Origin: a virus
Direction: 5' to 3' (one strand)
DNA length: 64,000 bases
IMG/VR virus record: IMGVR_UViG_3300032116_015700
Span: 27,094 to 91,093 of that record
In this document: one piece after another, positions 31,201-64,000 of the stretch
Layout: every line of letters starts with the position of its first letter
How positions within the stretch are numbered: the first letter of the stretch is position 1
The notes under the pieces: model-generated
Database searches by the model: none
Told to the model about the DNA's origin: nothing
What the model saw: only the letters and a program-made list of their open reading frames with translations
Program-made: the position numbers and the translations under genes

Positions 31201-34200
31201 TTCACTTCATATGCGGATGCTGAGTATGAAGCTGAGTATTGTGTTGTTCCAGTAACTTTAATATTATTCGCAGTATTCAATATAATTTGTGGTTCTGCTA
31301 TTAAGTTACTATTAATGATTTGCTCAGTTAATCTTCTAGCATAATCAATTGCAGTTGTTGTTTCAACTACCTGCTCTGATTCGGTTGCCAATGAAGGATA
31401 TAAGTAATAGAACTCTCCAGCTTTATTACTTCTTTCATTACCACCGTATAATAGGTCAGTTGCTACTGCATCTACAATATATCCAACATCTCTACGGCAT
31501 TTAGATTCAATATAATCCAACTCAGGCCATTTAGCGTTTACAAACGCTACGGTTTCTTCCTGAATGAAAGTTTTGTTATTTTTAATTAGATTATATGCGG
31601 TTTGGTTGTTAGCAGATGGTGATACAAATGTTGAACCACTCACAATATTCATCGCTAATCCCCTAGCATGTCTAACGCCGGTTAATGTTGGTTCTAATTG
31701 TTCATCAGTTGCTTCGGATGGGTAATCATAATAATATCTACCTGCAATAATACTTCTCTCATTACCACCATATAAAATATCGGTTGCAACCGCATCTATA
31801 ATGTAACCTAAATCTCTTTCACATTTAGATTGAGAATACACAAATCCTTGCCAAGATGAACTTAAATACGCAATAGATTCTGATACTATAAATTGTTTGT
31901 TTGTTCTTAATGATGCCCAAGAAGAAGAAACAAATGATGAAGAAAAATGTGTTAATACAGTATTTCTAACTACTTTTTCAGCCATTCCACCTGCAAACTT
32001 TAATGCAGTTACAGTCTGGTCTAATTGAGAACCAGTAGCTTGAGAAGGATAGTCAAAATAGAATCTTCCATTTACGAAAGATGCGGAGTTTCCACCATAT
32101 AATAAATCAAATGCTGCACCACTTATAATTAACCCTACATCTCTACTACAACTTGCCTCATTATATACAAATGTTGACCAAGATGAACTCATAAATGCAA
32201 TTGTTTCATCTATAATCATTTGTTTATTATCTAATAATAAATTATACGCATTATTGATTTTTGCATTAGTATTTGGAGTAATAGCAGGTGCCTCATAAAC
32301 AACTGAACTCGTACCATCATTTAATAATGTATCAATTACTAAAGAGAATGATGAAGAAATAAGTTTAGCTTGTAATCTATCTGCACTACTTCCACTTATT
32401 ATTTGCGGTGTTGCTGTAACTTTAATACTTGCAGATGTATTTGGTATTAATGTTGGAATTACCGATGTTCCGGTATTTACTATATTCAATACAATACCAA
32501 ACAAGTTACCAATTCTATTTATTTCAGAACCACTACCCGTAATTGAAATTGCGGTTGCGGTTGTTGTTTTTATTGAAGAAGAAGTATTTGAAACCAATGT
32601 TGGTATAGAACCAGTTCCATTGTTTATAATATTAATTACGTTTCCAAATGAACTACTAATACTTGCAGTTTGGGTGTTATACGTTCCACTTCCTAAACTT
32701 TGTGTTATTGATGAAATATGCAATAAAGTTGGTGTACTTAATTGGAATCCATAATTGTAATTATTTGCCAAACTATCAGGCACAGACGCAGAACCCCAAT
32801 AAATAATATCTCTTATTAATCCAAATGATGCCGTTGTTATACCAACTTCAATTGAACTTGCTGATACAGATGAAGTAATTTGAGATTCATTTGATACTTT
32901 AATAGAAGAACTTGAGTTTGTTACAAGTGGTGGTACTACATTCAATCCACCTGCAATAATTTCAGTAACTAATGCAAATGATGAACTCACTTTATTAATT
33001 TCTACTGTTGTGGCAGATATTGATGATGTAATTGGAGTTATATGACTTACTCTAATATTTGCATTAGTATTTGAAACTAAAGTAGGTGAAGATAATTGTA
33101 AATTTTGAACTATCTTTTTAGAAAGTGATTTTGCATATTCAACACCCGCTACAGTTTCAACTACCTGGTCAACTTTAGTTGCTTTAGATGGATATCTATA
33201 ATAGTAATCACCAGCAATAATACTTCTCTGATTACCACCATACCAAAGGTCAGTTGCTACGTTATCAACGATATACCCAACATCCCTTCTACATTTTTCT
33301 CTATTATATCTCAAATATGGATAGAAAGCATCAATAAATTGAATAGTTTCGTTTTGTATAAATGTTCTATTATTTTTAAGAAGATTATACGAAGATGAAA
33401 CAAATTCAGTTGGTGAAGTCAATAATTGTGAAGATATTACTTTTTGTGAAATACCCGCTGCAAATTGAATACCATCAATAGTAGGTCCTTTTTGTGCATT
33501 CGTTGTTGGAGAAATTGATGAAGTATATACTGCTGCAGAAGGATATAAATAATAGTATTCACCTGCTTTAGAACTTCTTTCGTTACCACCATATAATAGG
33601 TCAGTTGCTACATTATCAATAATATACGCAACATCTCTACTACAACTTAATTCGTTAAATGTAAAACCACCAACATTAGTCCAAGATGAACTCAAAAATG
33701 CAATAGTTTCTTTTTGAATTAATTGTTTATTTTGTCTTAACAAATTCCATGCAGTAAGTTCTGAATTAGTAGGTTGTAATAATGTTATATTTTTTGCTAC
33801 CTTTTCAACTAAACCTTTAGCGTGTTTAATACCATCCAATGTTTGGTCTAATTGTCCTTCATCATTACCATCACCTTCTACTATTGCAAGAGATGGATAT
33901 AAATAATAGTATTCACCAGCTTCTCTACTTCTCTCATTTCCACCATAAAGTATATCAGTTGCCACAGCGTCAATTATGTAACCAACATCCCTTCTACATT
34001 TAATTTGGTCATATTGGAAAAAACTCCATGCAGAATTAAGGAATCCAATAGTTTCAGTTTGTACTAAATCTTTATTTTCTTTTACTAAATTATATGTAGT
34101 TTGAACTGAAAGTGAAGCTGTTACAAATACTCTATTATTAAGTATTTGCTCCACCATATGCTTAGCGTGCTTAATACCACTTAATGTTGGTCCTAATTGA

Positions 34201-37200
34201 GATGTTGTTGCTTGAGATGGGTATCTATAATAAAACTCCCCTGCCTCTATACTTCTTTCATTACCACCATAAACTAAATCAGTTGCAACTGCATCTAAAA
34301 TATAACCAACATCTCTTTTACATGTTTGTTCGTTATATGATGCAGTACTCCAACTTGCAGAAACATATGCGATAACTTCATCGGCAATAAATCCTTTATT
34401 ATTGTAAATCAACTCTCTTGCCTGCAATCTATTTTGAGATACTTTACTAAATGTATTACCTCTTAATAGTTTATCTGCCAAATCTCTTGCATATCCAATA
34501 CCAGTAACAGTTTCTTGTATTTGTGAGCCTGTTGCTTCTGATGGATAAAGGTAATAATAAACTCCTGCTTTAATTGTTCTTTCGTTGCCACCCCACTTAA
34601 CATCAGTTGCCACTGCGTCAATTATATAACCAACATCTCTCTTACAAGTATTTTGGTCATAAGAATGAGATGCCCAAGAAGAAGATAAATATGCAATTGT
34701 TTCTTCTTGAATAAATCTTTTGTTGTTTACTAAAATATCATGTGCAACTAATGATTGTGAATTTGGATATGATAATACCGTATTTACAATTAGTTTTTGT
34801 GCTAATCTACTTGCATAGAATACTCCATCTAAAGTTTGATTTAATTGTGAACCTTGTGCTTGAGATGGGTAATCGTAATAAAATTTACCGTTTACTACTG
34901 ATGCGGAGTTACTATTCCAAATAAGGTCTTCAGCTGCGCCACTAATAATTAATCCAACATCTCTACGGCATTTTTCTTCATCATAAGATGCAGTTGACCA
35001 AGATGAACTCAAATAAGCAATAACTTCATTTTGTATGAATGGTATATTTTGTTTTAATATTCCGTATGCTGCTAATACAGCCGATGAAGATACCGATGAA
35101 GTATATGATGATGTAGGTAAATTTGCTATAAATGAACCAGTACCATTTGATATAATATTTGTTACTATTGAAATAGATGCCGATATTGCATTTACTTCGG
35201 TTTGTGTTGCAGATGATGCAGAAATGTATTGTGGTGTTGATGTAACTTTAATATTATTTACAGTATTTAGAACAAGTGTTGGTAAAGAGCCTGTACCATT
35301 TTCTAATATATTAATTACTCTATTAAAACTAGAAGTTATATTATTAGCTAATGATTTAGATACTGCAACTGATGATGAATATTGAGTTTCATTTGTTATT
35401 CTCAACAATGCGTTTACATTCTTTACCAATGTTGGTAATGAGCCAGTTCCTTCTTTCACAATATCTAAAACAATATCAAAACTATTGTTTGAGCCAGTAA
35501 TAAATGTATTAGATATAGATGCGGTTGAAATAAATTGAGGATAGTTTGTATTTTTAATTAATCCACTTGCATTATTTACCAAATTTGGAATTGAACCAGT
35601 ACCATTTGCTATAATATCCAATACTATATTAAAACCAGTAGTTACTTTTGCAGAATCAGATGGAAGTGGTTGTACCGATGAACTAAATTGATTATTAGTT
35701 AAACGTATAACACCCTTTATTGAAGAAGATGTAATTGTTGGTATTGCAGAAATACCTTTATCTATAATATTAATTACATTTCCAAATGATTGAGATACAA
35801 TGTTTTTATCGGTTTGATTTACAATACTTGAAGTAATTGTTTGTACTTCACTAGTCTTTTTAATACCATTTTCAGTATTTGAAACTAAAGTTGGAAACGC
35901 AGAACTACCACTTTCAATAATTTTTGCTACATTATCAAAACTATCTTCTATTGCCTTACCACCAATCGCAACCAACTTTGCCAAATCTCTCGTAAATCTT
36001 ACTGCATCGGTTGTTTCGGTTACTTGTGCATCCGTTGCTTGTGATGGGTATAAGAAATAGAATCTTCCTGCAGTAATTGCTCTCTCATTTCCACCATATA
36101 CTAAATCAGTTAAAACATTATCAGTTATAAATCCAACATCTCTAAAGCATTTAGATTGTATATAATTTAATGTTGGATATGTATCGTTCACATACTCAAT
36201 AGTATTTTGTTGTAAGAATGTTCTATTATCTTTTACTAATTTTCTTGCGGCTAATACAGCTTCAGATGGATTAGTTAAACTAACATTCTTAATAATATTT
36301 TGTACTAATTGATTTGCGTAATAAACACCTGTTATAGTTGGGTCTAATTGCTGAGATACGGAAGGTTCTCCACCCACCGTTGCTGCAGATGGATATCTAT
36401 AATAAAAATCACCAGCAACAATACTTCTTTCATTTCCACCATATACCAAATCAGTTCTTACTGCATCTAAAATATATCCCACATCTCTTTTACACTTAGC
36501 CTCATTATAATAAACTCCACTCCAAGAAGATGAAACATATTCTACAACTTCTGCCGCAATAAGTTCTTTGTTTCTTCTTATTAACTCACTTGCGTTTATT
36601 GAATTAAGTGAAGCTTGTGTGAATGTTTCTCCAACAACAATCTTTTGTGCTAATCTACTTGCGTAGTTGATAGCATCAGTTGTTTGAATTAATTGTGAAC
36701 CAGTTGCTGCCGATGGATATGTAAAATAGTAATCCGCTGCTATTCTAGTTCTTTCATTACCGCCATAGATAATATCAGTTCTGATTGCATCTAAAATATA
36801 TCCAATATCCCTTCTACAAGTTGTTTCATTGTAATCAAAACTTCCCCAAGATGAACTCATATATGCTATGGTTTCATCTGCTATAAAATCTTTGTTATTC
36901 AATATCAAGAATGAAGCACTTGCTCTACTTCCAGTAAATTGTTGTAATTCTATATTTTGAATTAATTTTTGTGCTAATCTACTTGCGTAGTTAATACCAT
37001 CTAAAGTTTGTGCCAATTGAGAACCAGTAGCCTGCGATGGATATTCATAATAGAATTGTCCATTTACTACTGATGATGAATTTACGTTAAAAATTAAATC
37101 TTCAGCGGCACCACTTATAATTAATCCAACATCTCTACGGCATTTAGCTTCATCATACTCAAATGTACTCCAAGAAGAACTTAAATATGCTATTGTTTCG

Positions 37201-40200
37201 TCTTGTATGAAATCAATATTTTGTTTAATTATTTCATAAGCAGCTCTTGCATTAGATGATGATAATGGAGCCGTATATGGTTGCTTACCAAATACACCTG
37301 CACTCTCACCTCTTTCAATAATTTTAGTTACAATTGAAATTGAAGATGAAATAAATGCAACATCTTCCAAGCTTCCACTATAAGATGAAGAAACGTATTG
37401 TTCAGTTGCACTTACTTTAATATTTTGAGATAAAGAAGAAGTTAATACAGGTATTACCGATTTACCACTTACTAATACATCGGTAATAAGTTTCATTGAT
37501 GAACTAATACTTTGTGATTCTGCAGTTGTTGCTGGTATTGCCAAAGTTTCTAACGATGTAGCAGTTACTTTAATGTTTGCCGCTACACTTGATGTATAAA
37601 GTGGAATTGAACCAGTACCATTTGTAATTATTGTACCTATCAATGATATAGATGCGGACAATGAACTACTTAACGCACCACTTGCGGCATTTGAACCACT
37701 ATATTGTGCTAATGAAGTTACTTTTATCGCATTTGCCTGTGAGTATGTGATTGCTGGTTCAGCTGCAATACCACCTGCAATAATTGTATTTACAATATCA
37801 TATCCACTTCCAATTTTATTAACTTCGGATGGAGATACAAATGATGATGTAACCTGTGAACCAGATGTTACATTAAGAGGATTATCTTTACCCCAATTTA
37901 AACCCGTATTTTGTGCCAATATTGAAGGTACAGCGGATATACCTCTTTTAATAATTCCTTCAATAATTGCAAAAGAACTACTAATAGAATTTTGTTGAGT
38001 TTGCGTACCACTATTTGATGATGTTACATTTGTATTATTTGTAACTTTAAAATTTCTCTCATCATTATTTACAATTCTTGGTGTATCTAAAATAATATTA
38101 CTTACAATATAATCAGTAATAATTTTTGCGTATTTAATTGCACCAATTGTTTCTCTTCTTTGAGTTGTTGTAGCAATAGATGGGTATTCATAATAATATT
38201 TACCTGCTATTACACTTCTCTCATTTCCACCATACAACAAGTCAGTTGAAACATTATCTAATATGTATCCAACATCACGTCTACACTTTTCTTGGTTATA
38301 TGATAATTGTGGAAAAGCAACATTTACAAATTCAATTACTTCATTTTGTATTAAACTCTTATTACTTCTTATTAAAGAGTATGCAGCTTGTGAAGATGTA
38401 GTTGGTAAACTAAATGTTTTTCCTGCAACTAAATTATTTACTAAACCTGCTGCAAAGCGAATACCATCTAAAGTTTGTCCCAATTGTCCATTACCATCAC
38501 CATCTCCCTCAACAATCGCTAATGAAGGATATAAATAATAAAATTCACCCGCTTCAATACTTCTTTCATTACCTCCATATAGAGTATCAGTTGCTACAGC
38601 ATCTAGAATATAACCAACATCTCGTTTACACTTTGCTTCATTATAATAAAAATTAGACCAAGAAGAAGATAAAAATGCAATAGTTTCATTTTGTATAAAT
38701 GATTTATTGTTATTGATTACTTGCCATGCAGTTTTTCTTTTTTGTGTATATGCATCTAAATCAATATCCCTAAATGTTTTATTTTTGATAAGTTCAATTG
38801 CTAATCTAGCTGCGTATTTTACTGCTGTTTTGGTTGGGTCTTTTTGTGATGTAATTGCACTAGATGGATATTCGTAATAGAATCTACCTGCAGTAATACT
38901 TTTATCATTACCACCCAATAATAGGTCTTGCGCAACAGCATCAATCAAGAAACCAACATCTCTACGGCAGGTTGCCTCATTGTAATAGAATCCATCTACA
39001 CCACTCCAAGAAGATGAAATATACTGTATTACTTCTTCTTGAATAAATGCTTTACTTCCGGTAAGAATTTCAAATGCGTTAATTATATCAGTGTCTTCAC
39101 TAGCCACACTTCCACTTATAGTTGCTGGATATGTTAGTGTATTTGCAATTAATTCTCTTGGAGTTTCTGAATTATTTATTATAAAGAATCTACCACTTAA
39201 TGTATTATTAATTTGTGATGTATAATATAATGTATTTGGTGCATCATATGGTACAGTGAACGTAATATTACCAACACTATCACCATTATTTATTACGCCT
39301 TTATTATAATCAAAAGTGTTTGCAATAGTTTCAACTGGTTGTGTTCTTATAAAGAATGGATAATCAATTCCACCTTGTCCTTCCGATGCACTTACATAAA
39401 ATTTATAAGTTTCACCTCTAAATAAAGTTATTGTAGGATTATTACCAACACCATCCCAATTATAAGATGAACTGTTTACATTTGTAATTGTATAATTTCT
39501 TCTATGGTTATTTGGAATTGGTAAAATATTACTACCAGTACCATTTGATAATATGTTATAAATTATACTAAAACTTGCACTTACTTTATTAATTGTTTCT
39601 ACTGAAGATGAGATACCACTTTGAACTGGTTCTAATCCACCAATATAAAAACTTGCACTTAATGAAGAAGTTAATTTTGGTACAACACTTAATCCATTTT
39701 TTATAATATCTATTACGGTTTCAAAAGATGAACTTATACTAGCGGTTACATCATTTGGTAATGCCGGAGAAGCAGGTGATGGTATTATTGATGTTCTTCT
39801 AATACTTGCCGATGTTGATGATTTAAAATCATAGGAACCAGTACCATTTGAAAAAATACCTAATAATACACCAAACGAAGAGCTAATTTGATTTAAATCT
39901 CCTTGAGATGCAGATAGTGGAGTAGCCGAACCAGAATAAGAGCCTGTAATTTGTGTTGCTCCTAAAATATTATAAGGTGATTCTGAACTAAATCCTTTAT
40001 TTGAACTTCTTGCTAATAACGTAGGATAATTTGAAGTACCACTATCTACTATTTCACTTACTAATTTAAAATCCGCTGAAATTTCATCCGCAGCGGTTGA
40101 AGATAATTCTACTCCAGATGAAGTAGTGTATTGTGGAAATTGAGAAGGAGATGATAAACGGATACCTTCCGCTGTATTTAATGTTGTTACTTCAGGCAAT

Positions 40201-41366
40201 GCATCTAACCCTCTATTCAATACATCAACAACTACACTCCAACTTGCTCTTACTCTATCTCTAGCATCAATATTTCCACCACTACCACTAATAAAACGAG
40301 AACCACTAGCATACATACCATACAAACCAAACGAAATGTTTGAGTTGTTTAGGGTAGCATGTCCACCATTGTTTACTCTAATTGCATAATATGAGAAGTT
40401 ATTAAAGAAAGATACGAGCTGAATGAATCCTCTACCATTTACCAAACAACCAACTCCGTTTGGAGAAATTTGTGTATAGGCATCTAATACCATTGAAGCG
40501 AGTGGTGAATCAGGATTGATTACATCACCATTAACATACAATCCACCACCGCCAGGAGGAATTTCTTCATAAAGCTCCGTAAATGAATTCTCTTGGTTAG
40601 AAATTTGTGAACAGTTCTGAACGTATGGTGAAGTTGTGATAAATGCACCAGGTTGGAACGCTACAGCAAATCCTTTTTCAGGATTTATTTGGTCAGGAAA
40701 TAATCTCAATCCTCCCATAGTAACCTCTGCGATATAACAACCAGAGTTTACATAGAATAAGTCTTCAGTAGGGTTTTTAGCGTTGATTTTTGTAATACGC
40801 AAACCTGCACCCCAAATAGTTGTATTTTTAGGAAGTATAACAGGGTTATCTTCCAAATATGTACCAGCCTGAACTTTAATTACATATCCATTTTGAATAG
40901 AACCCGTATCAAAACCATAACGTCCATCGTATCCAGGTGCTGCTAATGATGCAGCTCTTTTAATTGTACGAAGTGGAAATTGAATAGTTCTACCATCATT
41001 TGTATCATCACCATCGGTAGAAGAAACATATAGTGTAGGTACGTTAGCACCAAAATCTTTTGCCAAAATACCAGAATATCTTTGTGTATCTTCTGCTAAT
41101 ATTGTGTTTGATGATGTAATTGATAAAACAGTATTAGGTGCTCCCGTTTTTAGAACACCATCAATTATCAACGAACCAGTTAAAAATACTGAACCTGTAA
41201 TCTCATTTTTTGAACCGGTATCGTTTCCCATAAAGAAACTTTTTGATACAAAAAGTGAGCCAGAAATAATCGCATCATTTCCTAAAAACAAGTTTTCCGC
41301 AACCGTTAAAGACCCGGTTATATTTTGTTGTTCTTCAATTTGTTTACGAGGTATCAGTCTAGCCAT
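28275..41366 (-). CDS. Giant virion protein with β-helix and 23 Cys-Arg-Asp repeats
   Basis: A 4363-residue protein, the largest in the window. Residues 1-75 carry GSLTVAENLFLG-type fibre strands. Residues about 105-355 look like a right-handed β-helix of the pectate-lyase type, with GDDTNDGRTIQFPLRTIKRA and QAGTYLEDNPVILP. Residues about 624-734 are a cupredoxin-like domain without copper ligands. From about 785 to 4230 there are 23 copies of a helical unit with [YF]-x-x-x-x-C-x-R-D-[VIL], then about 10 residues, LYGGNERS and a YYYxYPS strand. They are broken by β-type spacer modules with IKVT and GTGSIPTL. The last 100 residues form a tip domain (VTFKALPPNQGG, GRIFFTSGNQDGDFRIG). Large proteins with this repeat and C-terminus occur in T4-like cyanophages as structural proteins. 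The exact location in the virion is unknown. It overlaps the 127-residue gene by one base. Confidence 0.85.
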   Translation of the reverse strand: MARLIPRKQIEEQQNITGSLTVAENLFLGNDAIISGSLFVSKSFFMGNDTGSKNEITGSVFLTGSLIIDGVLKTGAPNTVLSITSSNTILAEDTQRYSGILAKDFGANVPTLYVSSTDGDDTNDGRTIQFPLRTIKRAASLAAPGYDGRYGFDTGSIQNGYVIKVQAGTYLEDNPVILPKNTTIWGAGLRITKINAKNPTEDLFYVNSGCYIAEVTMGGLRLFPDQINPEKGFAVAFQPGAFITTSPYVQNCSQISNQENSFTELYEEIPPGGGGLYVNGDVINPDSPLASMVLDAYTQISPNGVGCLVNGRGFIQLVSFFNNFSYYAIRVNNGGHATLNNSNISFGLYGMYASGSRFISGSGGNIDARDRVRASWSVVVDVLNRGLDALPEVTTLNTAEGIRLSSPSQFPQYTTSSGVELSSTAADEISADFKLVSEIVDSGTSNYPTLLARSSNKGFSSESPYNILGATQITGSYSGSATPLSASQGDLNQISSSFGVLLGIFSNGTGSYDFKSSTSASIRRTSIIPSPASPALPNDVTASISSSFETVIDIIKNGLSVVPKLTSSLSASFYIGGLEPVQSGISSSVETINKVSASFSIIYNILSNGTGSNILPIPNNHRRNYTITNVNSSSYNWDGVGNNPTITLFRGETYKFYVSASEGQGGIDYPFFIRTQPVETIANTFDYNKGVINNGDSVGNITFTVPYDAPNTLYYTSQINNTLSGRFFIINNSETPRELIANTLTYPATISGSVASEDTDIINAFEILTGSKAFIQEEVIQYISSSWSGVDGFYYNEATCRRDVGFLIDAVAQDLLLGGNDKSITAGRFYYEYPSSAITSQKDPTKTAVKYAARLAIELIKNKTFRDIDLDAYTQKRKTAWQVINNNKSFIQNETIAFLSSSWSNFYYNEAKCKRDVGYILDAVATDTLYGGNERSIEAGEFYYLYPSLAIVEGDGDGNGQLGQTLDGIRFAAGLVNNLVAGKTFSLPTTSSQAAYSLIRSNKSLIQNEVIEFVNVAFPQLSYNQEKCRRDVGYILDNVSTDLLYGGNERSVIAGKYYYEYPSIATTTQRRETIGAIKYAKIITDYIVSNIILDTPRIVNNDERNFKVTNNTNVTSSNSGTQTQQNSISSSFAIIEGIIKRGISAVPSILAQNTGLNWGKDNPLNVTSGSQVTSSFVSPSEVNKIGSGYDIVNTIIAGGIAAEPAITYSQANAIKVTSLAQYSGSNAASGALSSSLSASISLIGTIITNGTGSIPLYTSSVAANIKVTATSLETLAIPATTAESQSISSSMKLITDVLVSGKSVIPVLTSSLSQNIKVSATEQYVSSSYSGSLEDVAFISSSISIVTKIIERGESAGVFGKQPYTAPLSSSNARAAYEIIKQNIDFIQDETIAYLSSSWSTFEYDEAKCRRDVGLIISGAAEDLIFNVNSSSVVNGQFYYEYPSQATGSQLAQTLDGINYASRLAQKLIQNIELQQFTGSRASASFLILNNKDFIADETIAYMSSSWGSFDYNETTCRRDIGYILDAIRTDIIYGGNERTRIAADYYFTYPSAATGSQLIQTTDAINYASRLAQKIVVGETFTQASLNSINASELIRRNKELIAAEVVEYVSSSWSGVYYNEAKCKRDVGYILDAVRTDLVYGGNERSIVAGDFYYRYPSAATVGGEPSVSQQLDPTITGVYYANQLVQNIIKNVSLTNPSEAVLAARKLVKDNRTFLQQNTIEYVNDTYPTLNYIQSKCFRDVGFITDNVLTDLVYGGNERAITAGRFYFLYPSQATDAQVTETTDAVRFTRDLAKLVAIGGKAIEDSFDNVAKIIESGSSAFPTLVSNTENGIKKTSEVQTITSSIVNQTDKNIVSQSFGNVINIIDKGISAIPTITSSSIKGVIRLTNNQFSSSVQPLPSDSAKVTTGFNIVLDIIANGTGSIPNLVNNASGLIKNTNYPQFISTASISNTFITGSNNSFDIVLDIVKEGTGSLPTLVKNVNALLRITNETQYSSSVAVSKSLANNITSSFNRVINILENGTGSLPTLVLNTVNNIKVTSTPQYISASSATQTEVNAISASISIVTNIISNGTGSFIANLPTSSYTSSVSSSAVLAAYGILKQNIPFIQNEVIAYLSSSWSTASYDEEKCRRDVGLIISGAAEDLIWNSNSASVVNGKFYYDYPSQAQGSQLNQTLDGVFYASRLAQKLIVNTVLSYPNSQSLVAHDILVNNKRFIQEETIAYLSSSWASHSYDQNTCKRDVGYIIDAVATDVKWGGNERTIKAGVYYYLYPSEATGSQIQETVTGIGYARDLADKLLRGNTFSKVSQNRLQARELIYNNKGFIADEVIAYVSASWSTASYNEQTCKRDVGYILDAVATDLVYGGNERSIEAGEFYYRYPSQATTSQLGPTLSGIKHAKHMVEQILNNRVFVTASLSVQTTYNLVKENKDLVQTETIGFLNSAWSFFQYDQIKCRRDVGYIIDAVATDILYGGNERSREAGEYYYLYPSLAIVEGDGNDEGQLDQTLDGIKHAKGLVEKVAKNITLLQPTNSELTAWNLLRQNKQLIQKETIAFLSSSWTNVGGFTFNELSCSRDVAYIIDNVATDLLYGGNERSSKAGEYYYLYPSAAVYTSSISPTTNAQKGPTIDGIQFAAGISQKVISSQLLTSPTEFVSSSYNLLKNNRTFIQNETIQFIDAFYPYLRYNREKCRRDVGYIVDNVATDLWYGGNQRSIIAGDYYYRYPSKATKVDQVVETVAGVEYAKSLSKKIVQNLQLSSPTLVSNTNANIRVSHITPITSSISATTVEINKVSSSFALVTEIIAGGLNVVPPLVTNSSSSIKVSNESQITSSVSASSIEVGITTASFGLIRDIIYWGSASVPDSLANNYNYGFQLSTPTLLHISSITQSLGSGTYNTQTASISSSFGNVINIINNGTGSIPTLVSNTSSSIKTTTATAISITGSGSEINRIGNLFGIVLNIVNTGTSVIPTLIPNTSASIKVTATPQIISGSSADRLQAKLISSSFSLVIDTLLNDGTSSVVYEAPAITPNTNAKINNAYNLLLDNKQMIIDETIAFMSSSWSTFVYNEASCSRDVGLIISGAAFDLLYGGNSASFVNGRFYFDYPSQATGSQLDQTVTALKFAGGMAEKVVRNTVLTHFSSSFVSSSWASLRTNKQFIVSESIAYLSSSWQGFVYSQSKCERDLGYIIDAVATDILYGGNERSIIAGRYYYDYPSEATDEQLEPTLTGVRHARGLAMNIVSGSTFVSPSANNQTAYNLIKNNKTFIQEETVAFVNAKWPELDYIESKCRRDVGYIVDAVATDLLYGGNERSNKAGEFYYLYPSLATESEQVVETTTAIDYARRLTEQIINSNLIAEPQIILNTANNIKVTGTTQYSASYSASAYEVNRVSSSFAVVTNIVEVGTGSIPSLISNTSESIKFTNANQYITASSNYGTTYEASLISASISIVTNIVAIGTASLPTPVVYTTPSTASNVYYAYNLLKENIGFIQNETIAYISSSWSTASYDETKCKRDVGLIISGAAEDMLFGVDSASIVNGKFYFESASQATDSQLNYTLDGLFYASKLAQKVLQNIEYQTASIERTTAWTLLNQNKPFIQNETIAYISSSWVTGSNSDVAFTYNEDKCKRDISHIIDAVATDVYYGGNERIRTAGLYYYLYPSAATGSQLDETLDAMRYAGQLAQKVIVNTQFFTASIYASASHALMKQNKAFIQEETIAYVSSSWVGLQYTESKCRRDVGHLIDAVSTDILYGGNERSAKAGLYYFLYPSLATGSQLESTVNAIDYAGGIAKNIIQNKVFVTASQVVSASVALLRSNREFIQEETLHYLTSSWANFNYDKAKCRRDVGYIIDGVATDLLYGGNERTVMSGEFYFKYPSKATLLGDGDGDGQLKQTNDGINYASRIAQKVIQNVEFNTASLAVSSSVYLLRENKNFIAAEAIAYVSSSWSGVKYNEASCSRDVKYLIDAATTDLLYGGQERSVIAGTYYYLFPSRATNAGVPSEQNQLDPTITGVRYAGRLASKSVTNPTYVDVWVASGSLMRTAQLLTFNKPLIQKETITFLSSSWSTLKYNEVSCSRDLGFIIDAIRTDLVYGGNERSIEAGSYYYRIPSVAIAESYTDNGEVGQKKQTVDGINFARGIAEKLVRNTQLTYLAPSTKRRQAAARLVAAKDELKQRAIGYTNGAFPYLVYNEASCSRDTGLIVDACATDLLYGGNERAIAAASSYYTGQYGSAQAVISSQKLETLETNRYLRTRAEFIAAGAPLESFGSLIVATGIDYSYNGSGVTFKALPPNQGGSGVANPAFEITELGGGRIFFTSGNQDGDFRIGTGLSINQATGTLVGRTFSKSLFSLVTPFSLALQI
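28640..38990 (-). repeat. 23 copies of a Cys-Arg-Asp-Val-Gly repeat
   Basis: Each copy is about 70-85 residues, with one invariant Cys two residues before Arg-Asp. Four copies (near 30800, 32140, 34950 and 37120) are a distinct type with GLIISGAAEDL or a close variant and NG before the aromatic strand, and each opens a new block directly after a spacer module. Three copies (near 29705, 33860 and 38490) share an insertion with a GDGxxxGQL acidic turn. Confidence 0.85.
39160..39495 (-). other. Cupredoxin-like domain 3, copper ligands lost
   Basis: Residues about 624-734 of the 4363-residue protein. It aligns along its length with domains 1 and 2 (TLFRGETYKFYV, NNGDSVGNITFTVP, LYYTSQINNTLSG), but His, Cys, His and Met are replaced by Tyr, Ser, Asn and Leu. 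Confidence 0.6.
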
Positions 41367-48722: not shown

Positions 48723-50042
48723 TTAGAAAAGATAAATGTATGATGGGTATTTATCGTCTTTTAATTTTTGACGAATTCTTTCATCTGAACATCCAAAGTG
48801 TTCTCCGGCCTCTTTAAGAGAATAAAATTGTAAACCTTCACATTCAATAATTGGAAGTTGAATATCTATTTTTGAACGATGTTGAAGTTCAATCATTTCA
48901 TCATAACTTATATCGTTACGATTTACTTTTACCCAATGACGATATGTTGGATTATTTGATTCAAAGTAATTTCTAGCTTCAGATTCTTCAATTCCCAATT
49001 TTTCTGCAACCTGTTTTGGATTCTCAAAAGGAACTCCACTAATTTCGTATTTAATTGTTGGATTAGTTTCTTCACCAATTACTTGCCAATCTTTATATTT
49101 TGATTTTGTACTTCGGCATCTTCTCTCTACTTCAGATGCAACTAAATTATTTGGGTCAATAGATATTGCAGCTTCTCTAAAACTTCTATATGATACACCA
49201 TCAACAATGCACATAAAGTTATCACCATTATTAATAACTTCGGTTGCTACATCCGGATTACCCTTTACGAATACTAATATGTTTTGATGAACCGATGCTA
49301 TTTTACGATTTCTTTCAAAATATGTATCAACCACTCTGGATGCCTGATGTTGTGAATTGAACAAAACCATATCATTATAGAAGTGCAATCCTGCTTCTTC
49401 ACACGCTCTAATTGTTTTCCAAACTAATCCTTTATACTTCCCAATCTTATAATTTCCAGTTACCGATTGTTCTCTCACTTCGGATACAACTACTGCAAAG
49501 AACCGATTATCTTTTAATTTTCTTGCAGCTTTGTTAAGAATTGAATAATACTTTTTATCAAACGAATCTTCATCCATATTTGAAAGGTCAGCCGGGTCAT
49601 CGGTATATTTCTCTAAATCATAGTAAGGTGGACAAGTAAAAACAAAGTCCTGAGTTTTATCCTGTATAGAATCAATTACCCACTCACTATCACCTTGTAT
49701 CCAATTTGGTTTTTGAGATTGTTTTTTATTTGCTTCTATTTGTTCATCGGAAAGGTCAATACCATTGTAGATAAATCCCATTTCAGTTGCAACAATACCT
49801 CTTACACTACCACCCGCAAATGGGTCTAATACTCTACCTTCTTTTGGACAGAACCACTCATACATCTTTTCACAAAGTGTTGCATCAAATATAGAAACGG
49901 TATTATCTTCCCAAAAACGGGCTCTGGATTCGGTATTCTCTCTACCTAATTCTGATTGAATATTATAGGTGTTAATCCACCATCTTTTACGTTCTTGCCA
50001 CTCTTTAGAACGAGTGTCTAAAATAGAGAAAGGTTTAATCAT
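48723..50042 (-). CDS. DNA methyltransferase with C-terminal DNA-binding modules
   Basis: A 439-residue protein when started at the ATG at 50042; a TTG five codons upstream overlaps a promoter-like site and is less likely. Motif I is DPFAGGS at residues 73-79 (S-adenosylmethionine binding) and motif IV is TCPPYYDLE at about 136-144, so it should methylate adenine N6 or cytosine N4. The motif order is I then IV. The C-terminal 170 residues contain three modules of about 40 residues with the pattern G-[VL]-x-[FY]-x-[SN]-x-[KR]-[EQ]-[AV], which resemble NUMOD/IENR1 modules of homing endonucleases and may read the DNA target. It interrupts the head gene order between prohead protein and scaffold genes and has its own terminators on both sides. 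It probably protects or marks phage DNA; the target is unknown. Confidence 0.8.
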   Translation of the reverse strand: MIKPFSILDTRSKEWQERKRWWINTYNIQSELGRENTESRARFWEDNTVSIFDATLCEKMYEWFCPKEGRVLDPFAGGSVRGIVATEMGFIYNGIDLSDEQIEANKKQSQKPNWIQGDSEWVIDSIQDKTQDFVFTCPPYYDLEKYTDDPADLSNMDEDSFDKKYYSILNKAARKLKDNRFFAVVVSEVREQSVTGNYKIGKYKGLVWKTIRACEEAGLHFYNDMVLFNSQHQASRVVDTYFERNRKIASVHQNILVFVKGNPDVATEVINNGDNFMCIVDGVSYRSFREAAISIDPNNLVASEVERRCRSTKSKYKDWQVIGEETNPTIKYEISGVPFENPKQVAEKLGIEESEARNYFESNNPTYRHWVKVNRNDISYDEMIELQHRSKIDIQLPIIECEGLQFYSLKEAGEHFGCSDERIRQKLKDDKYPSYIYLF

Positions 50043-50046
50043 AACA

Positions 50047-50078
50047 CAAATATACAAAAAAAGTTTGGTAATTCCAAA
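50047..50078 (-). promoter_or_regulatory. Host-type (Bacteroidota-like) promoter at the methyltransferase start
   Basis: In gene sense TTTG, exactly 20 nt, then TATATTTG, which matches the Bacteroidota consensus TTTG-N19-21-TAnnTTTG. The final G is 5 nt before the A of the ATG at 50042, so the transcript could start on or near the start codon. The TTTG lies inside the preceding terminator hairpin, so the match could be chance. Confidence 0.45.
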
Positions 50079-58919: not shown

Positions 58920-61736
58920 TTAACGAGAATATTTAAAAATACCTAATATTTGATTGAGAGGTGCAAATGCACCTGTAAGTTTGTATGTATTTCCCCCATA
59001 AACGAATACAATACCTTCGTTTGGTACAATTTTATCAAATCCACCTAAAGCGTTTAAACGGCTTAGTTCTATTTTTAGCTTTTCAATTTTCTTTGGGTCA
59101 CCACTTGCTTTTATTTGTTTAATAGCGTTTCCTAATTCTTTTCTCAATTGTTTAGTTGCATCTGATGGATTTGCTGTTAATACCGATTCCATAAATGATA
59201 ATACATCCGCTCCCACTCCTAAAAATATTTCTTCAAATTTCATAAGATTATCTTTCATAATCTTTTGTTGGTCTTGTTTTTCTATTTTATCAGCCCAAGC
59301 TCTTATTTTATCATCCTGTATTTGATTTATACGCATTGATTTATCACCAAACGCCCATCTCTTAACCAATCCTATTTTTGAACCAATATCTAACTTTTTT
59401 GCATTCTTTTCTACAAAATTAGTCCACCAAGCTTGATGGTAATCCGCAACTCCATCGGAATCTGCTAATCCAAACTCTTTTTGAAGTCTATTAATCATTG
59501 ATATGTATTTACCTTGTAGTTTAGAAAGTTCTTGTGATTTAGGTAAAGATTGCATTGGAGGTCCTTGAATTGTATATGTATCCTGAACATCTTTATTAAC
59601 CTGCTTAATCATTCCAGCTAATATTTTTGCAGCTTCCTGATTCTCACCAATTACCTCACCTTCTTTATCATATTCAAAAGTACCATGAAACACTAACAGC
59701 GGTTGACCATATGGAATTACATTAGAGTTTTGAGGATATATTACTTCTAAATTCATAAAACATTTACCATCCTTAAAAATCTTCTTTCTTTGTGGTTCGG
59801 ATAATGCAGCTATTGCTTTTGAAAGGTCATTCATTGCAAATGTATAAGCATCGGTTAAAGCACCTCTACCAGCAAATTGTTTTGCAACTTGACCAATAGT
59901 CATAGCACCTTCACCCTGATTTTTTGTATGTGATTTGTTTCTTGCCGCAACTAATCTACCATTTACCCAACTAATTGCCAACGCCTGTCCATCGGTTTTT
60001 TCTCTTGCCAAATCCAAATCACCATTTAATGCTCTTACTACAATTTGTTTAAGGTCACCAAATGTAAGATTCATCTGAATATCAAACGGGTGATTCATAT
60101 GACCATATGCTCCACCTTCTAAAAGTAAACCCTCACTTAATGGGGTTTCAATTTTGGAAAGTTTACTATAATAATTTGGGTCTTCGTACAAATGGTCTAA
60201 TGCAATTTCTTTAGCAACTTCTATATCAGTTGTATGTTCTCTTTCAACAGCATATCCTTTTATAAATTCGTTCTTTAAAGTTTGTGGACTTATCTTATGA
60301 TGTTTAGCTATATCTGATAATGTCATACCTTTTGCCAATCCACCAGGTATTTTATCTTCTTTTACTTTAGTATATTCTTCGCTACCATCTTTATCCAATT
60401 TAGATTTTAATTTCTTAACATCTTTTGGATTCGGTGCACCATTGATATATCCACCAGGTAAACTTAAACCAACTCCCGCTCCTCCTGGTAATCCCATCTC
60501 ACCCATAATCTCATCAACTATTTGATTGATTTCATCCTCTGATATTAATCCCTCTTTTACAACCTTTATATTTGCTTTACCATCCATTTCGGCCTGTTTT
60601 CTTTGTTCTTTTTCTTTTGTGGTCAATGCTTCTTCCCAACCCAAATCTTTTACTGCTTTTAAGGCATCACCTAACCAGTTTGTGTACGCACGTTTTGCTG
60701 TAAATTTCCCAATAGAATCGGTATTTTTAGGTTCTTGCATAATTGGAAAATTAGTAACCTGATTTCTCGGGTCCATCTCTTTATAGTTTACTAATTCTTT
60801 TTCTTTTTTTAATTCGTCAGGTCTATCAACCACATCATATCCAATTTTTTTACCTCTTGTTTTAGCCTGATTGTGGTATTGTTTCCAAGATGATGCAAAA
60901 GGACCTGTACCATCGTCTGTTTCTATTCTTTCTACGCCGTTTGCAAATTGAACCGAAATTTCTTTTAGTTGCTCTTTTTTAGGAATTCTAAATGTTACTG
61001 CTTTTTTACCATTAATTGTTGGCATTCCATATTCATCTTTACTTATAGATTTAACAACTACTTTTTTGTTTTTAAACCTACCCATAAGAATCGTATCACC
61101 AACTTTAACGTTAAGTTTAATTTCTTCGTTTATATATTCTTTCAGAGATTTTAGTTTCAGAGTAATCATTTTGAATATCTGCTCATCAAACTTTGGGTAT
61201 GCTTTTAAGAACCCTTTCTTTCTATCTGCAACGCTTCCTGCACTTAACCAATAACGAACATCAGTACCACTAATTGGATTTGATTGAGCTGGTGCAATAT
61301 AAACATATCCTCTATCTAAATAACCAGTATCTACTTTACCCTTATATGGTTTAAAATATTTACCACTTAAACGTGATGAATCCTTTTCACCCACCGCAGT
61401 CACAAAGGCTGTGGTATCTGAATCAAATTTGTTTAATATTTCTTCTGGAGCGTATGGGTTTTTTATACTTACTATTTTGTTTGATGGAATACCAAACATT
61501 TTTTGCATTATAGCCTTTTTCTCTCTAAACCCAAAAGGAGATTTTTTTGAATCGGTAACATCAGAAGTTCCAATGTACACGCTATCTTTTCCGAACTTCT
61601 TAACTAAATGTTCGTATGTGGCAAAGTGCCCTTTGTGAAATGGTTGAAAGCGGCCTGAATAGACAACAACCACTTTGTCTATCTCAGCCGCTTCTCCCAA
61701 TATTGTTTCTACTAAAAATTTTGCTAATCCCTTCAT
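58920..61736 (-). CDS. Multidomain nucleotidyltransferase: NMNAT-like plus KxDG ligase-type domain
   Basis: A 938-residue protein. Residues about 20-195 are an NMNAT/cytidylyltransferase-like domain: GRFQPFHKGH at 28-37 (the HxGH nucleotide-binding motif) and ISGTDVR at 155-161. Residues about 200-260 resemble a KOW-like strand module. Residues about 465-530 match DUF5661 (VEREHTTDIEVAKEIALDHL). Residues about 545-938 match DUF6267 and carry covalent nucleotidyltransferase motifs: KTDG at 580-583 (motif I lysine K580), FMNLEV at 660-665, EGIVF at 907-911 and YKLTG at 918-922. It could join or cap nucleic acid ends, with the first domain making a dinucleotide such as NAD; this combination is inference. 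I know similar fusions from T4-like marine phages. It begins a packaging-gene transcript with a promoter-like motif 15 nt before the ATG. Confidence 0.8.
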   Translation of the reverse strand: MKGLAKFLVETILGEAAEIDKVVVVYSGRFQPFHKGHFATYEHLVKKFGKDSVYIGTSDVTDSKKSPFGFREKKAIMQKMFGIPSNKIVSIKNPYAPEEILNKFDSDTTAFVTAVGEKDSSRLSGKYFKPYKGKVDTGYLDRGYVYIAPAQSNPISGTDVRYWLSAGSVADRKKGFLKAYPKFDEQIFKMITLKLKSLKEYINEEIKLNVKVGDTILMGRFKNKKVVVKSISKDEYGMPTINGKKAVTFRIPKKEQLKEISVQFANGVERIETDDGTGPFASSWKQYHNQAKTRGKKIGYDVVDRPDELKKEKELVNYKEMDPRNQVTNFPIMQEPKNTDSIGKFTAKRAYTNWLGDALKAVKDLGWEEALTTKEKEQRKQAEMDGKANIKVVKEGLISEDEINQIVDEIMGEMGLPGGAGVGLSLPGGYINGAPNPKDVKKLKSKLDKDGSEEYTKVKEDKIPGGLAKGMTLSDIAKHHKISPQTLKNEFIKGYAVEREHTTDIEVAKEIALDHLYEDPNYYSKLSKIETPLSEGLLLEGGAYGHMNHPFDIQMNLTFGDLKQIVVRALNGDLDLAREKTDGQALAISWVNGRLVAARNKSHTKNQGEGAMTIGQVAKQFAGRGALTDAYTFAMNDLSKAIAALSEPQRKKIFKDGKCFMNLEVIYPQNSNVIPYGQPLLVFHGTFEYDKEGEVIGENQEAAKILAGMIKQVNKDVQDTYTIQGPPMQSLPKSQELSKLQGKYISMINRLQKEFGLADSDGVADYHQAWWTNFVEKNAKKLDIGSKIGLVKRWAFGDKSMRINQIQDDKIRAWADKIEKQDQQKIMKDNLMKFEEIFLGVGADVLSFMESVLTANPSDATKQLRKELGNAIKQIKASGDPKKIEKLKIELSRLNALGGFDKIVPNEGIVFVYGGNTYKLTGAFAPLNQILGIFKYSR

Positions 61737-61766: not shown

Positions 61767-62186
61767 TTACTCTTTTACAACTTTCAATCCACTAGAACCA
61801 TCTGGCATAGTTTGTTGAGATTGTTGAGATTGTTGTCTTTGCATCTCAGCCAATTGTTTTCTAGTTGGTGCGCCAGGTTGGTACTGAATAGTTCCATCTT
61901 GAATATTGATTCTACCTTGTGGATATTTTTCATCCAATCCATCAATAATTTCTCTTAATTGAGAATTTAGTGCTTTAAATTCATCTTCACCCTTTTCTAA
62001 AAAGTCATCCATTCTGATGATTTCTTCATTGATTTCTTTCTTACGAATGTGAATTTGTCCAAACTCTACAATCAAACTTTGAATTTTTTGATTATAATCG
62101 TTAATAGAATTTAGAATATCTGCATCTATTTTTGCAGTTTCTATCGTAATTTGTTGTTGTTGTGGTACATTATCTAAACCTGCCAT
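61767..62186 (-). CDS. Hypothetical coiled-coil protein, 139 residues
   Basis: A 139-residue protein. Residues about 10-95 are a continuous coiled coil (IDADILNSINDYNQKIQSLI, INEEIIRMDDFLEKGEDEFK). The C-terminal third is disordered, Gln/Ser-rich (MQRQQSQQSQQ). A short motif YPQGRINIQDGTIQY lies between. No family is recognised. It stands between the sugar cassette and the 938-codon gene. The 43-nt gap before its ATG contains a TATATATAC stretch but no clear copy of the recurring promoter motif. Small coiled-coil proteins of this type are common near phage packaging and head genes, with unknown function. Confidence 0.6.
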   Translation of the reverse strand: MAGLDNVPQQQQITIETAKIDADILNSINDYNQKIQSLIVEFGQIHIRKKEINEEIIRMDDFLEKGEDEFKALNSQLREIIDGLDEKYPQGRINIQDGTIQYQPGAPTRKQLAEMQRQQSQQSQQTMPDGSSGLKVVKE

Positions 62187-62229: not shown

Positions 62230-62976
62230 TTATTTTTCAAACACCGAAACTCCCCTTTTTTTCACAACTTCTCCCGCACAATAGTTTCCCCATTTTATAG
62301 ATTCTTCTACATCATTAGAACTTAAATACTTTGCAACAAATCCTGCTACAAATGTATCACCCGCACCACTTACATCGGCATTATCTATTTTTTTAGTTTT
62401 AATTAGATTCCCCTTATACGATGCTCCTTTACCATCCAACGTTATAATTATTTTTTCGTCTAACCATTCATTTTCTACAATTATATCGTGATTATTTTGT
62501 GCCTCAAATCTATTTAATTTTATATATGATATATTTCTACACCAATCACCCAATGTTTTTTTGGTATCAAGTATGATTAAATGATGTAATTTAGAAATTT
62601 CAAATATATCATTTTCGGTTAGAAACCCTTTACAATAATCCGAAATAACAACCGCATCAAATTCTGATAAAGGTGGTAGTTCGCTAATATTGATTCTTTT
62701 TACTAAATCATTTTCATCTACCCTTAAATAAAGCTCATTTGTATCTTTATTTATATATCTGGTTTTAATAATATTTCCTTCACCACAAAAAGTTTTTACT
62801 TTTATATCCATTGATTTCAGATTTGCAGCAGTGTTAGCAGCCATACCCAAATTTACAACCGTTTCAATCGGATTAAAAATAGGACCGTTTCCTTCGGGTG
62901 ATTTTCTAGTTGATGTCCCATATATGAAAACATCATTGCATTTCTCACCAATTACTAAAACTTTATATTTTGACAT
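62230..62976 (-). CDS. PfkB-family kinase, HldE N-terminal-domain-like
   Basis: A 248-residue sugar kinase of the PfkB family, shorter than the roughly 315 residues of the HldE kinase domain. The signature VSGAGDTFVAGF at residues 202-213 contains the catalytic Asp (D207) and anion hole. VVISDYCKGFLT at about 109-120 and the ANTAANL substrate loop near 47-53 match the heptose-7-phosphate kinase (RfaE1) subgroup. The region between ANTAAN and the TRYI strand is much shortened, so the sugar lid is compact. It would phosphorylate heptose-7-phosphate at C1. It overlaps the next upstream gene by 14 nt; together the two equal a split HldE. Other PfkB sugar substrates cannot be excluded. Confidence 0.8.
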   Translation of the reverse strand: MSKYKVLVIGEKCNDVFIYGTSTRKSPEGNGPIFNPIETVVNLGMAANTAANLKSMDIKVKTFCGEGNIIKTRYINKDTNELYLRVDENDLVKRINISELPPLSEFDAVVISDYCKGFLTENDIFEISKLHHLIILDTKKTLGDWCRNISYIKLNRFEAQNNHDIIVENEWLDEKIIITLDGKGASYKGNLIKTKKIDNADVSGAGDTFVAGFVAKYLSSNDVEESIKWGNYCAGEVVKKRGVSVFEK

Positions 62977-63355
62977 CTCCTAATATTTTTGATGTACTTA
63001 TATTATTTATTTTTTGAAAAAATTCTATTTTGGGAACATATTCCACGCCAATTATTTGATGATATTGATAATCATCACCTATTACCATAACATCTGGCTC
63101 CCATTCACGTATTCTATTAATAAGTTCGTCATCCGTACCAAAAGATACAACAGAATCAACAAAACGAATAGATGAGATAAAATCCATCCTATCAGAAAGG
63201 GTATTAAAAGGTCTTTCCCTACCTTTTTTATCCCTAACTCTTTTATCTTCGTCCAATCCAACCCTAACTGAACCAAACTTTGAAGCGTGTTCAAGCAAAC
63301 GAATATGACCAATATGTACAATATCAAATGTACCATTTACCCAAACTTTTTTCAT
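62963..63355 (-). CDS. Nucleotidyltransferase, HldE C-terminal-domain-like
   Basis: A 130-residue cytidylyltransferase-like protein. NGTFDIVHIGH at residues 7-17 holds the HxGH motif. R-x-x-x-S-x-R-M-D near 50, VIGDDYQYHQIIG near 91 and NNISTSKI at about 117-124 match the HldE adenylyltransferase domain (RfaE2) more closely than TagD. It would turn heptose-1-phosphate into ADP-heptose after dephosphorylation. The stop of the glycosyltransferase gene overlaps its start (TAATG), and its own end overlaps the kinase by 14 nt, so all three are translated together. A reading frame at 63082-63336 on the same strand is a shadow. Confidence 0.82.
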   Translation of the reverse strand: MKKVWVNGTFDIVHIGHIRLLEHASKFGSVRVGLDEDKRVRDKKGRERPFNTLSDRMDFISSIRFVDSVVSFGTDDELINRIREWEPDVMVIGDDYQYHQIIGVEYVPKIEFFQKINNISTSKILGDVKI

Positions 63356-64000
63356 TATAAAAACTTTTCCAATTCTTTAATAACCATTTCGGATGTTATT
63401 GATTTAGTACATTCAAATTGTCTTTCAGTACCTTTGTGGTCTGGACACCAATTCCAATCGCCTGGATCAAGTCTTAAACGATTAAAACACCCCTCACATT
63501 TTCCTTGCGGTGCTCCTATACGAATACAATCTTCCATCTCTGCCCACTTATAAGAAAATCCACTTATTAATACAGTTGGTACATCCAATGCCCAGCTTAA
63601 CCAACTTAATCCACTACCTATTCCAATAAATGCCTTTGATTTCAACATTTCATCCATAACTAATTCAATTGGACCATTTGGATGCCTAACTATACCGGAA
63701 GGTAATTGATTTCCCATATAGTTCTCACCTTCTTTTGAAAGTAGTTTTACAATGTAACCTCTATTATTTAACCAGTCTACAATATCCTGCCATCCTGTTG
63801 GGTTATTCCAAAATTTTGATTGTGCAGTTCCATGTATTCCAATACAAACCTGCTTTAAACCTGATTCTTTGTGGGGATTTCTATCTTTTAATCTTGGTTT
63901 TATTTCTCTAAAGTTTAAACCCAATATATCCGAACACATTTTTTGCATCGTTTGTTGTTTCGGGTCAATTGGATTTTTATAAACGTTTATTGAACTATCT
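63355..64000 (-). CDS. TibC/BAHT-like O-heptosyltransferase (5' end cut off)
   Basis: At least 214 residues are visible; the frame stays open to the right edge, so the start is outside and the ATG at 63948 is internal. The visible part is the C-terminal half of a GT-B glycosyltransferase of the autotransporter heptosyltransferase family (TibC, Aah; GT9-related). The matching text is KMCSDILGLNFREIKPRL, FIGIGSGLSWLSWALDVPTV, LISGFSYKW, and a cysteine segment CEGCFN...WNWCPDHKGT...FECTKSIT. The four Cys are spaced C-x2-C-x13-C-x11-C; in TibC the corresponding Cys bind iron. Known members transfer heptose from ADP-heptose to serines of repeat-rich adhesins. The adjacent HldE-like genes fit this donor. 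The acceptor here is unknown. Confidence 0.85.
   Translation of the reverse strand, partial: DSSINVYKNPIDPKQQTMQKMCSDILGLNFREIKPRLKDRNPHKESGLKQVCIGIHGTAQSKFWNNPTGWQDIVDWLNNRGYIVKLLSKEGENYMGNQLPSGIVRHPNGPIELVMDEMLKSKAFIGIGSGLSWLSWALDVPTVLISGFSYKWAEMEDCIRIGAPQGKCEGCFNRLRLDPGDWNWCPDHKGTERQFECTKSITSEMVIKELEKFL

Follow-up and report, generated by a model that had tools for sequence, protein, structure and literature searches.

A TibC-like glycosyltransferase in a freshwater phage family points to probable sugar attachment on the Ser/Thr-rich collagen-like repeats of its own fibres

The window analysed here is a 64,000-nucleotide stretch of viral DNA (positions 27094-91093 of the 91,093-nt IMG/VR contig IMGVR_UViG_3300032116_015700), and its end is the end of the contig. 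At this very end, on the minus strand, three overlapping open reading frames (ORFs) form a cassette encoding a TibC-like O-glycosyltransferase, a nucleotidyltransferase and a PfkB kinase. Our comparisons suggest that, in this freshwater phage family, relatives of adhesin-glycosylating enzymes attach sugars to Ser/Thr-rich collagen-like repeats (G-[ST]-[ST] triplets) of the phage's own fibres. The pairing of TibC-like and triplet genes also occurs as neighbouring genes in bacteria. We assign a probability of about 0.6 to the reading that the cassette glycosylates virion fibres, using a branch of the BAHT family (TIGR04414) whose substrate has switched.

Scanning IMG/VR gave 221 relatives, 80 of which were kept; the material consists of contig fragments and includes no isolate. 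Because the window contig ends at position 64,000, the 5′ part of the transferase was read from relatives, namely two contigs (L002 and L003) that are 100% identical over the query. They supply the complete gene (L003:9473-10645), whose start an earlier note, made from the letters of the window, had placed past the end; the product has 390 residues, the first 176 of them beyond the window contig. The fragment matched TIGR04414 with E = 2.5e-48, and the full-length protein scored 281 bits against a cut-off of 200, covering profile positions 11-373 of 374. Its match to TibC (PDB 4rap) had E = 4e-54, with 115 identities in 346 aligned residues (33%). Using the numbering of the TibC structure paper (PMC4358343), we mapped residues in an alignment of up to 83 rows. 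The catalytic Asp110 is conserved in 80/80 rows covering that position, the sugar-phosphate residues Thr226, Lys230 and Trp305 in all rows covering them, and the iron-finger cysteines (Cys339, Cys342, Cys358 and Cys370), which make up the four-Cys segment noticed earlier, in 83/83. Judged by sequence, the transferase belongs to the TibC/BAHT family, being homologous over its full length to TibC and AAH (PDB 4rap, 4rb4); it falls within GT9/BAHT and its catalytic residues are intact. In one TibC-like protein from the wider collection (L392, G060) the catalytic residues are in place, but none of the four iron-finger cysteines remains.

The phage enzyme also differs from TibC and AAH in several respects. 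Val occupies the position of TibC Arg286 in 81/83 rows and Gly that of Pro300 in 83/83, and the N-terminal TibC_1st domain scores below its cut-off. In TibC, Arg286 contacts adenine N1, gives ADP specificity and is one of the residues whose replacement by alanine abolished or largely abolished activity, and Pro300 determines D,D-stereoselectivity (PMC4358343). Other triplet-linked members, from phages and bacteria, have Ile, Leu or Thr at the Arg286 position.

The candidate acceptors are two proline-free collagen-like regions in fibre ORFs of the window (Table 1). Runs of seven G-[ST]-[ST] codons gave 50 matches in the window contig, 120 and 83 in two long relatives, and 85 in a divergent metagenome-assembled genome (MAG) with a TibC-like gene, whereas 21 TibC-negative contigs gave no match. 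Microcystis phage Mel-JY01 has shorter runs; in its record (L084:1142-1690, 9585-9629) the triplet runs are on the strand opposite to annotated genes, which may therefore have been called on the wrong one. We also ran the test in reverse, picking viral contigs of at least 20 kb solely by at least two runs of ten G-[ST]-[ST] codons (n = 41). Triplet-bearing open frames were found in 41/41 of these contigs. The 17-mer control gave too few contigs, and contigs with the periodic pattern GGNCC were added to them. A TibC-like gene was detected in 17/41 triplet contigs versus 1/50 controls (Fisher p = 1.6e-6), GGNCC, which is palindromic and has many matches by chance, serving here as a general-contig control and not as a clean collagen control. 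From this genomic pairing we infer that the acceptor would lie on the collagen-like triplets.

The same pairing was seen in bacteria. A profile scan of GTDB genomes for TibC-like loci, blind to triplets, returned 11 loci, several of which are probably phage contigs binned with MAGs, and triplet runs lay inside the fetched flank at 9/11. In the chromosome of Methylobacter luteus, the gene for a 287-aa protein stops 40 nt upstream of the TibC gene; this protein has a signal-like N-terminus and carries GTS/GTA triplets. The TibC neighbours in Polaromonas and two gammaproteobacterial MAGs are lipoprotein-like proteins of 102-208 aa with GTS/GSS tails. According to whole-genome pattern scans, most of these genomes have their strict runs at the TibC locus or close to it. 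Pairs of this kind (L168:6923-9125; L171:7998-9441; L175:2439-4128; L176:6503-9872) are apparently independent of autotransporters.

As a positive control we took canonical TIGR04414 proteins (480-650 bits) from an even sample of 399 genomes. These proteins keep Arg286, no triplet runs were found within about 10 kb of their genes, and three of their loci adjoin AIDA or autotransporter repeats. In a tree rooted at midpoint they form one clade (100/99), apart from both the window family and the bacterial proteins linked to triplets. These results bear on the literal interpretation of the family, in which the cassette would be a moron that heptosylates autotransporter adhesins of the host. The BAHT name and the known acceptors of TibC and AAH (PMC4358343) speak for it, but the phage clade is separate, its neighbours differ, and the cassette lies within the structural gene cluster in every relative; we consider it very improbable. 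The autotransporter-type acceptor evoked by the earlier note is not supported: no autotransporter was found nearby, the neighbours are phage structural and glycosyltransferase genes, and the comparisons favour Ser/Thr triplet fibres.

The upstream genes, read in the identical contigs, are consistent with fibre glycosylation. Directly upstream of the transferase lies the gene for a 723-aa protein with GT4, methyltransferase (PF13578) and GT25-like domains, itself preceded by a fibre with a terminal S74 chaperone domain; the position of the transferase beside fibre and packaging genes is constant in relatives. Mel-JY01 has GT4, methyltransferase and TibC domains fused in a single protein of 1226 aa, and in other phages most of the TibC domains examined are preceded by a GT4 domain in the same chain. 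The last domain of the 723-aa protein is closest by fold to the GT25 collagen glycosyltransferases. By Pfam the match is weak, the first member scoring 20.7 bits for PF01755 against a gathering threshold of 24, and 36/40 members matching this family at E values up to 0.1 (best 2.7e-5). The nearest PDB folds to its AlphaFold model (predicted local distance difference test score 81) in Foldseek are Mimivirus R655, a putative collagen glycosyltransferase (PMC9546862), and human COLGALT1. COLGALT1 acts on hydroxylysine, whereas the phage triplets offer Ser/Thr; alternatively, the phage domain may act on a sugar already attached.

Glycosylation of the virion could instead target another acceptor, either the S74-chaperone fibre or a 4363-aa repeat fibre. 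In relatives, the structural gene immediately upstream is that of the S74 fibre, and the start of the 4363-aa ORF resembles, in our own reading of the sequence, a pectate-lyase-type beta-helix, which would be nearer to the beta-helical autotransporters modified by TibC. Yet the association with triplets holds in unrelated phages and in bacteria that lack these fibres, and we regard this alternative as improbable. The 4363-aa ORF itself (window 28275-41366) contains a CRRDVGYI-DAVATDLLYGGNERS-type repeat in many copies, and the domain search returned no clear Pfam domain in it.

The two remaining genes of the cassette are predicted to act in donor synthesis. The kinase scored 95.3 bits for rfaE_dom_I, under the equivalog cut-off of 345, and the nucleotidyltransferase 97.6 bits for rfaE_dom_II, under the cut-off of 181.5, which is still its closest curated family. 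HldA, a heptose-7-phosphate kinase, is the best PDB profile match of the kinase (E = 1.2e-20) and accounts for all top seven chains in a Foldseek search; the GAGD motif of the kinase and the HxGH motif of the nucleotidyltransferase are intact. Profiles, residues and fold thus bear out the naming of the three genes as an HldE-N-like kinase, an HldE-C-like nucleotidyltransferase and a TibC/BAHT-like transferase. Among systems for ADP-heptose synthesis (HldE, or HldA with HldC), the phage pair matches the two halves of HldE best, but as two separate short proteins. The best PDB profile match of the nucleotidyltransferase is a cytidylyltransferase, and its base specificity is ambiguous. No match to gmhA or gmhB (PF13580, PF13242) was obtained in 13 records, most of them fragments, and SIS_2 was absent from 13 kinase- or TerL-related records. 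With Val in place of Arg286 as well, the ADP-heptose donor proposed by the earlier note is not secured.

Donor synthesis and transferase had also been described as one coupled unit, which the relatives do not bear out as an obligate arrangement. Of the 77 relatives in which this region is covered, both donor genes occur in 35, the nucleotidyltransferase alone in 9 and neither gene in 33 (nucleotidyltransferase in 44/77, kinase in 35/77); a further contig, L217, has the kinase without the nucleotidyltransferase. Where the donor genes are missing, the transferase ends 43-53 nt from the small gene at the 3′ border of the cassette. Since both are absent from 33/77 relatives, donor synthesis is an optional module dependent on the host, and the constant core consists of the transferase and the 723-aa protein. 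The kinase was clear in only 2/17 TibC-positive triplet contigs (a third match was weak), and not beside TibC, so the coupling to donor genes is special to the window family. The nucleotidyltransferases at the equivalent position fall into two lineages, one about 45% and the other about 70% identical to the window copy (L007, L026 and L067 compared with L003, L039 and L056), which suggests gene replacement.

Enzymes of these types also invite the explanation that the phage decorates the lipopolysaccharide (LPS) or O-antigen of the infected cell, blocking superinfection or altering adsorption. GT4, GT25 and HldE-type genes are the usual enzymes of LPS synthesis, and pelagimyophage LPS genes have been interpreted in this way (PMC7029224), as has likewise been proposed for pelagiphages and cyanophages. 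The cyanophages P-SSM2 and S-SM2 carry a related kinase (35-42% identity) and a nucleotidyltransferase gene in nucleotide-sugar clusters with an annotated phosphoheptose isomerase; a protein search found no TibC-like gene in these records. However, TIGR04414 is a family of protein O-glycosyltransferases and the iron finger is intact, the transferase pairs with genes for triplet proteins, in bacteria as well as in phages, and the cassette is constantly placed beside fibre and packaging genes. Modification of the host surface is in our judgement unlikely, though less so than the other alternatives.

Several observations weigh against fibre glycosylation by the cassette. No TibC-like gene was found in 24/41 triplet contigs, though many of these are fragments, and pattern matches occurred in 4/20 TibC-negative genomes, one of them with many. 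The triplet fibres of the window family are encoded about 40 kb away from the cassette, with no triplet runs within 10 kb of it, so that adjacency there is no evidence. Distance clustering on viral contigs was only mild (combined p = 0.016, contigs of at least 60 kb), and the viral argument therefore rests on co-presence and not on distance. At sequence level the assignment to GT25 is weak, and the fold match of the model is moderate (template modelling score about 0.5-0.6). Finally, the change from Arg286 to Val, together with the ambiguous nucleotidyltransferase, leaves the donor sugar nucleotide insecure.

For fibre glycosylation by the cassette we infer a donor, a product, an order of steps and an effect on the virion as follows. 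The host is assumed to make heptose-7-phosphate, also supplying the isomerase and phosphatase steps. Where present (they are absent in many relatives), the phage kinase and nucleotidyltransferase would, by their families, raise the activated sugar. The TibC-like transferase, given the gene pairing and its intact catalytic residues, would then put the first sugar, probably heptose, on Ser (perhaps Thr) of the triplets. The GT4 and GT25-like domains may extend the glycan and the methyltransferase cap it, as their domain composition and fusions suggest. Speculatively, the glycans could stiffen or protect the proline-free triple helix, by analogy with glycosylated collagens. In a broader form of the proposal, TibC-like enzymes outside the canonical clade would have switched acceptor to G-[ST]-[ST] triplets, on small secreted proteins or lipoproteins in bacteria and giant fibres in phages, and together with GT4 and GT25-type domains would constitute a prokaryotic collagen-glycosylation system in phages, in which donor synthesis is optional and the nucleotide possibly different; we put this at roughly even odds. 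Full-text searches of the open-access literature on phage O-heptosyltransferases and glycosylated tails or capsids yielded no description of the TibC-like/triplet pairing.

The cassette is read on the minus strand in the order transferase, nucleotidyltransferase, kinase, followed by a 139-aa small protein, a 938-aa protein, a 230-aa protein, TerL and portal. Transferase and nucleotidyltransferase overlap by 1 nt (TAATG), nucleotidyltransferase and kinase by 14 nt. The cassette is not a chance arrangement, because its gene order is preserved in 35 relatives and the ratio of nonsynonymous to synonymous substitution rates (dN/dS) of the three window genes is 0.06-0.24, indicating purifying selection. 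The earlier statement that it lies directly next to packaging genes was roughly right, TerL being about 4 kb away, but three genes intervene, and the immediate upstream neighbours are the glycosyltransferase and the S74 fibre. The closest terminase relatives among cultured phages are those of Flavobacterium phage immuto (57%) and Mel-JY01 (56%). A role in DNA hypermodification was dropped, the neighbourhood giving no support. The small 3′-border protein has a paralogue upstream of the 723-aa gene; the two coiled-coil-like genes (about 30% identity; L003:7024-7281 and window 61767-62186) flank the cassette on both sides and may mark its mode of insertion. In the 938-aa protein (window 58920-61736), the N-terminal domain is cytidylyltransferase-like (PF01467) and a KTDG stretch in the C-terminal part is similar to ligase motif I. 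Within the capsid gene cluster, an ORF at window 48723-50057 reads as DNA methyltransferase-like.

Table 1. Features of the window that belong to the cassette or are proposed as its acceptors
Feature	Position	Strand	Basis and remarks
TibC/BAHT-like O-glycosyltransferase, C-terminal 214 aa	63355-63999	minus	5′ end cut; TIGR04414 and TibC 4rap matches
HldE-C-like nucleotidyltransferase, 130 aa, optional module	62963-63355	minus	rfaE_dom_II match, HxGH motif
HldE-N-like PfkB kinase, 248 aa, optional module	62230-62976	minus	HldA by profile and fold, GAGD motif
Small conserved 139-aa protein, 3′ border marker of the cassette	61767-62186	minus	43-53 nt from the transferase where the donor genes are missing; paralogue upstream of the 723-aa gene
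Collagen-like G-[ST]-[ST] region, 335 triplets, of the 3513-aa fibre ORF 16714-27255	17194-20313	minus	Ser/Thr at X 92%, at Y 74%, proline-free; proposed acceptor
Collagen-like region, 159 triplets, of the 2872-aa fibre ORF 6052-14670	12190-13971	minus	Ser/Thr at X 94%, at Y 62%, proline-free; proposed acceptor

If this reading is correct, dedicated protein O-heptosylation would extend from bacterial adhesins to phage virions and collagen-like proteins, and a concrete pair of enzyme and substrate could be named, as simple as two adjacent genes of Methylobacter luteus. It would also offer an explanation for the existence of Gly-Ser/Thr triplet fibres without proline, with glycans replacing hydroxyproline. 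Annotations as 'autotransporter O-heptosyltransferase' outside the canonical clade may give the wrong substrate, and 'LPS genes' of phages may in fact glycosylate the virion.
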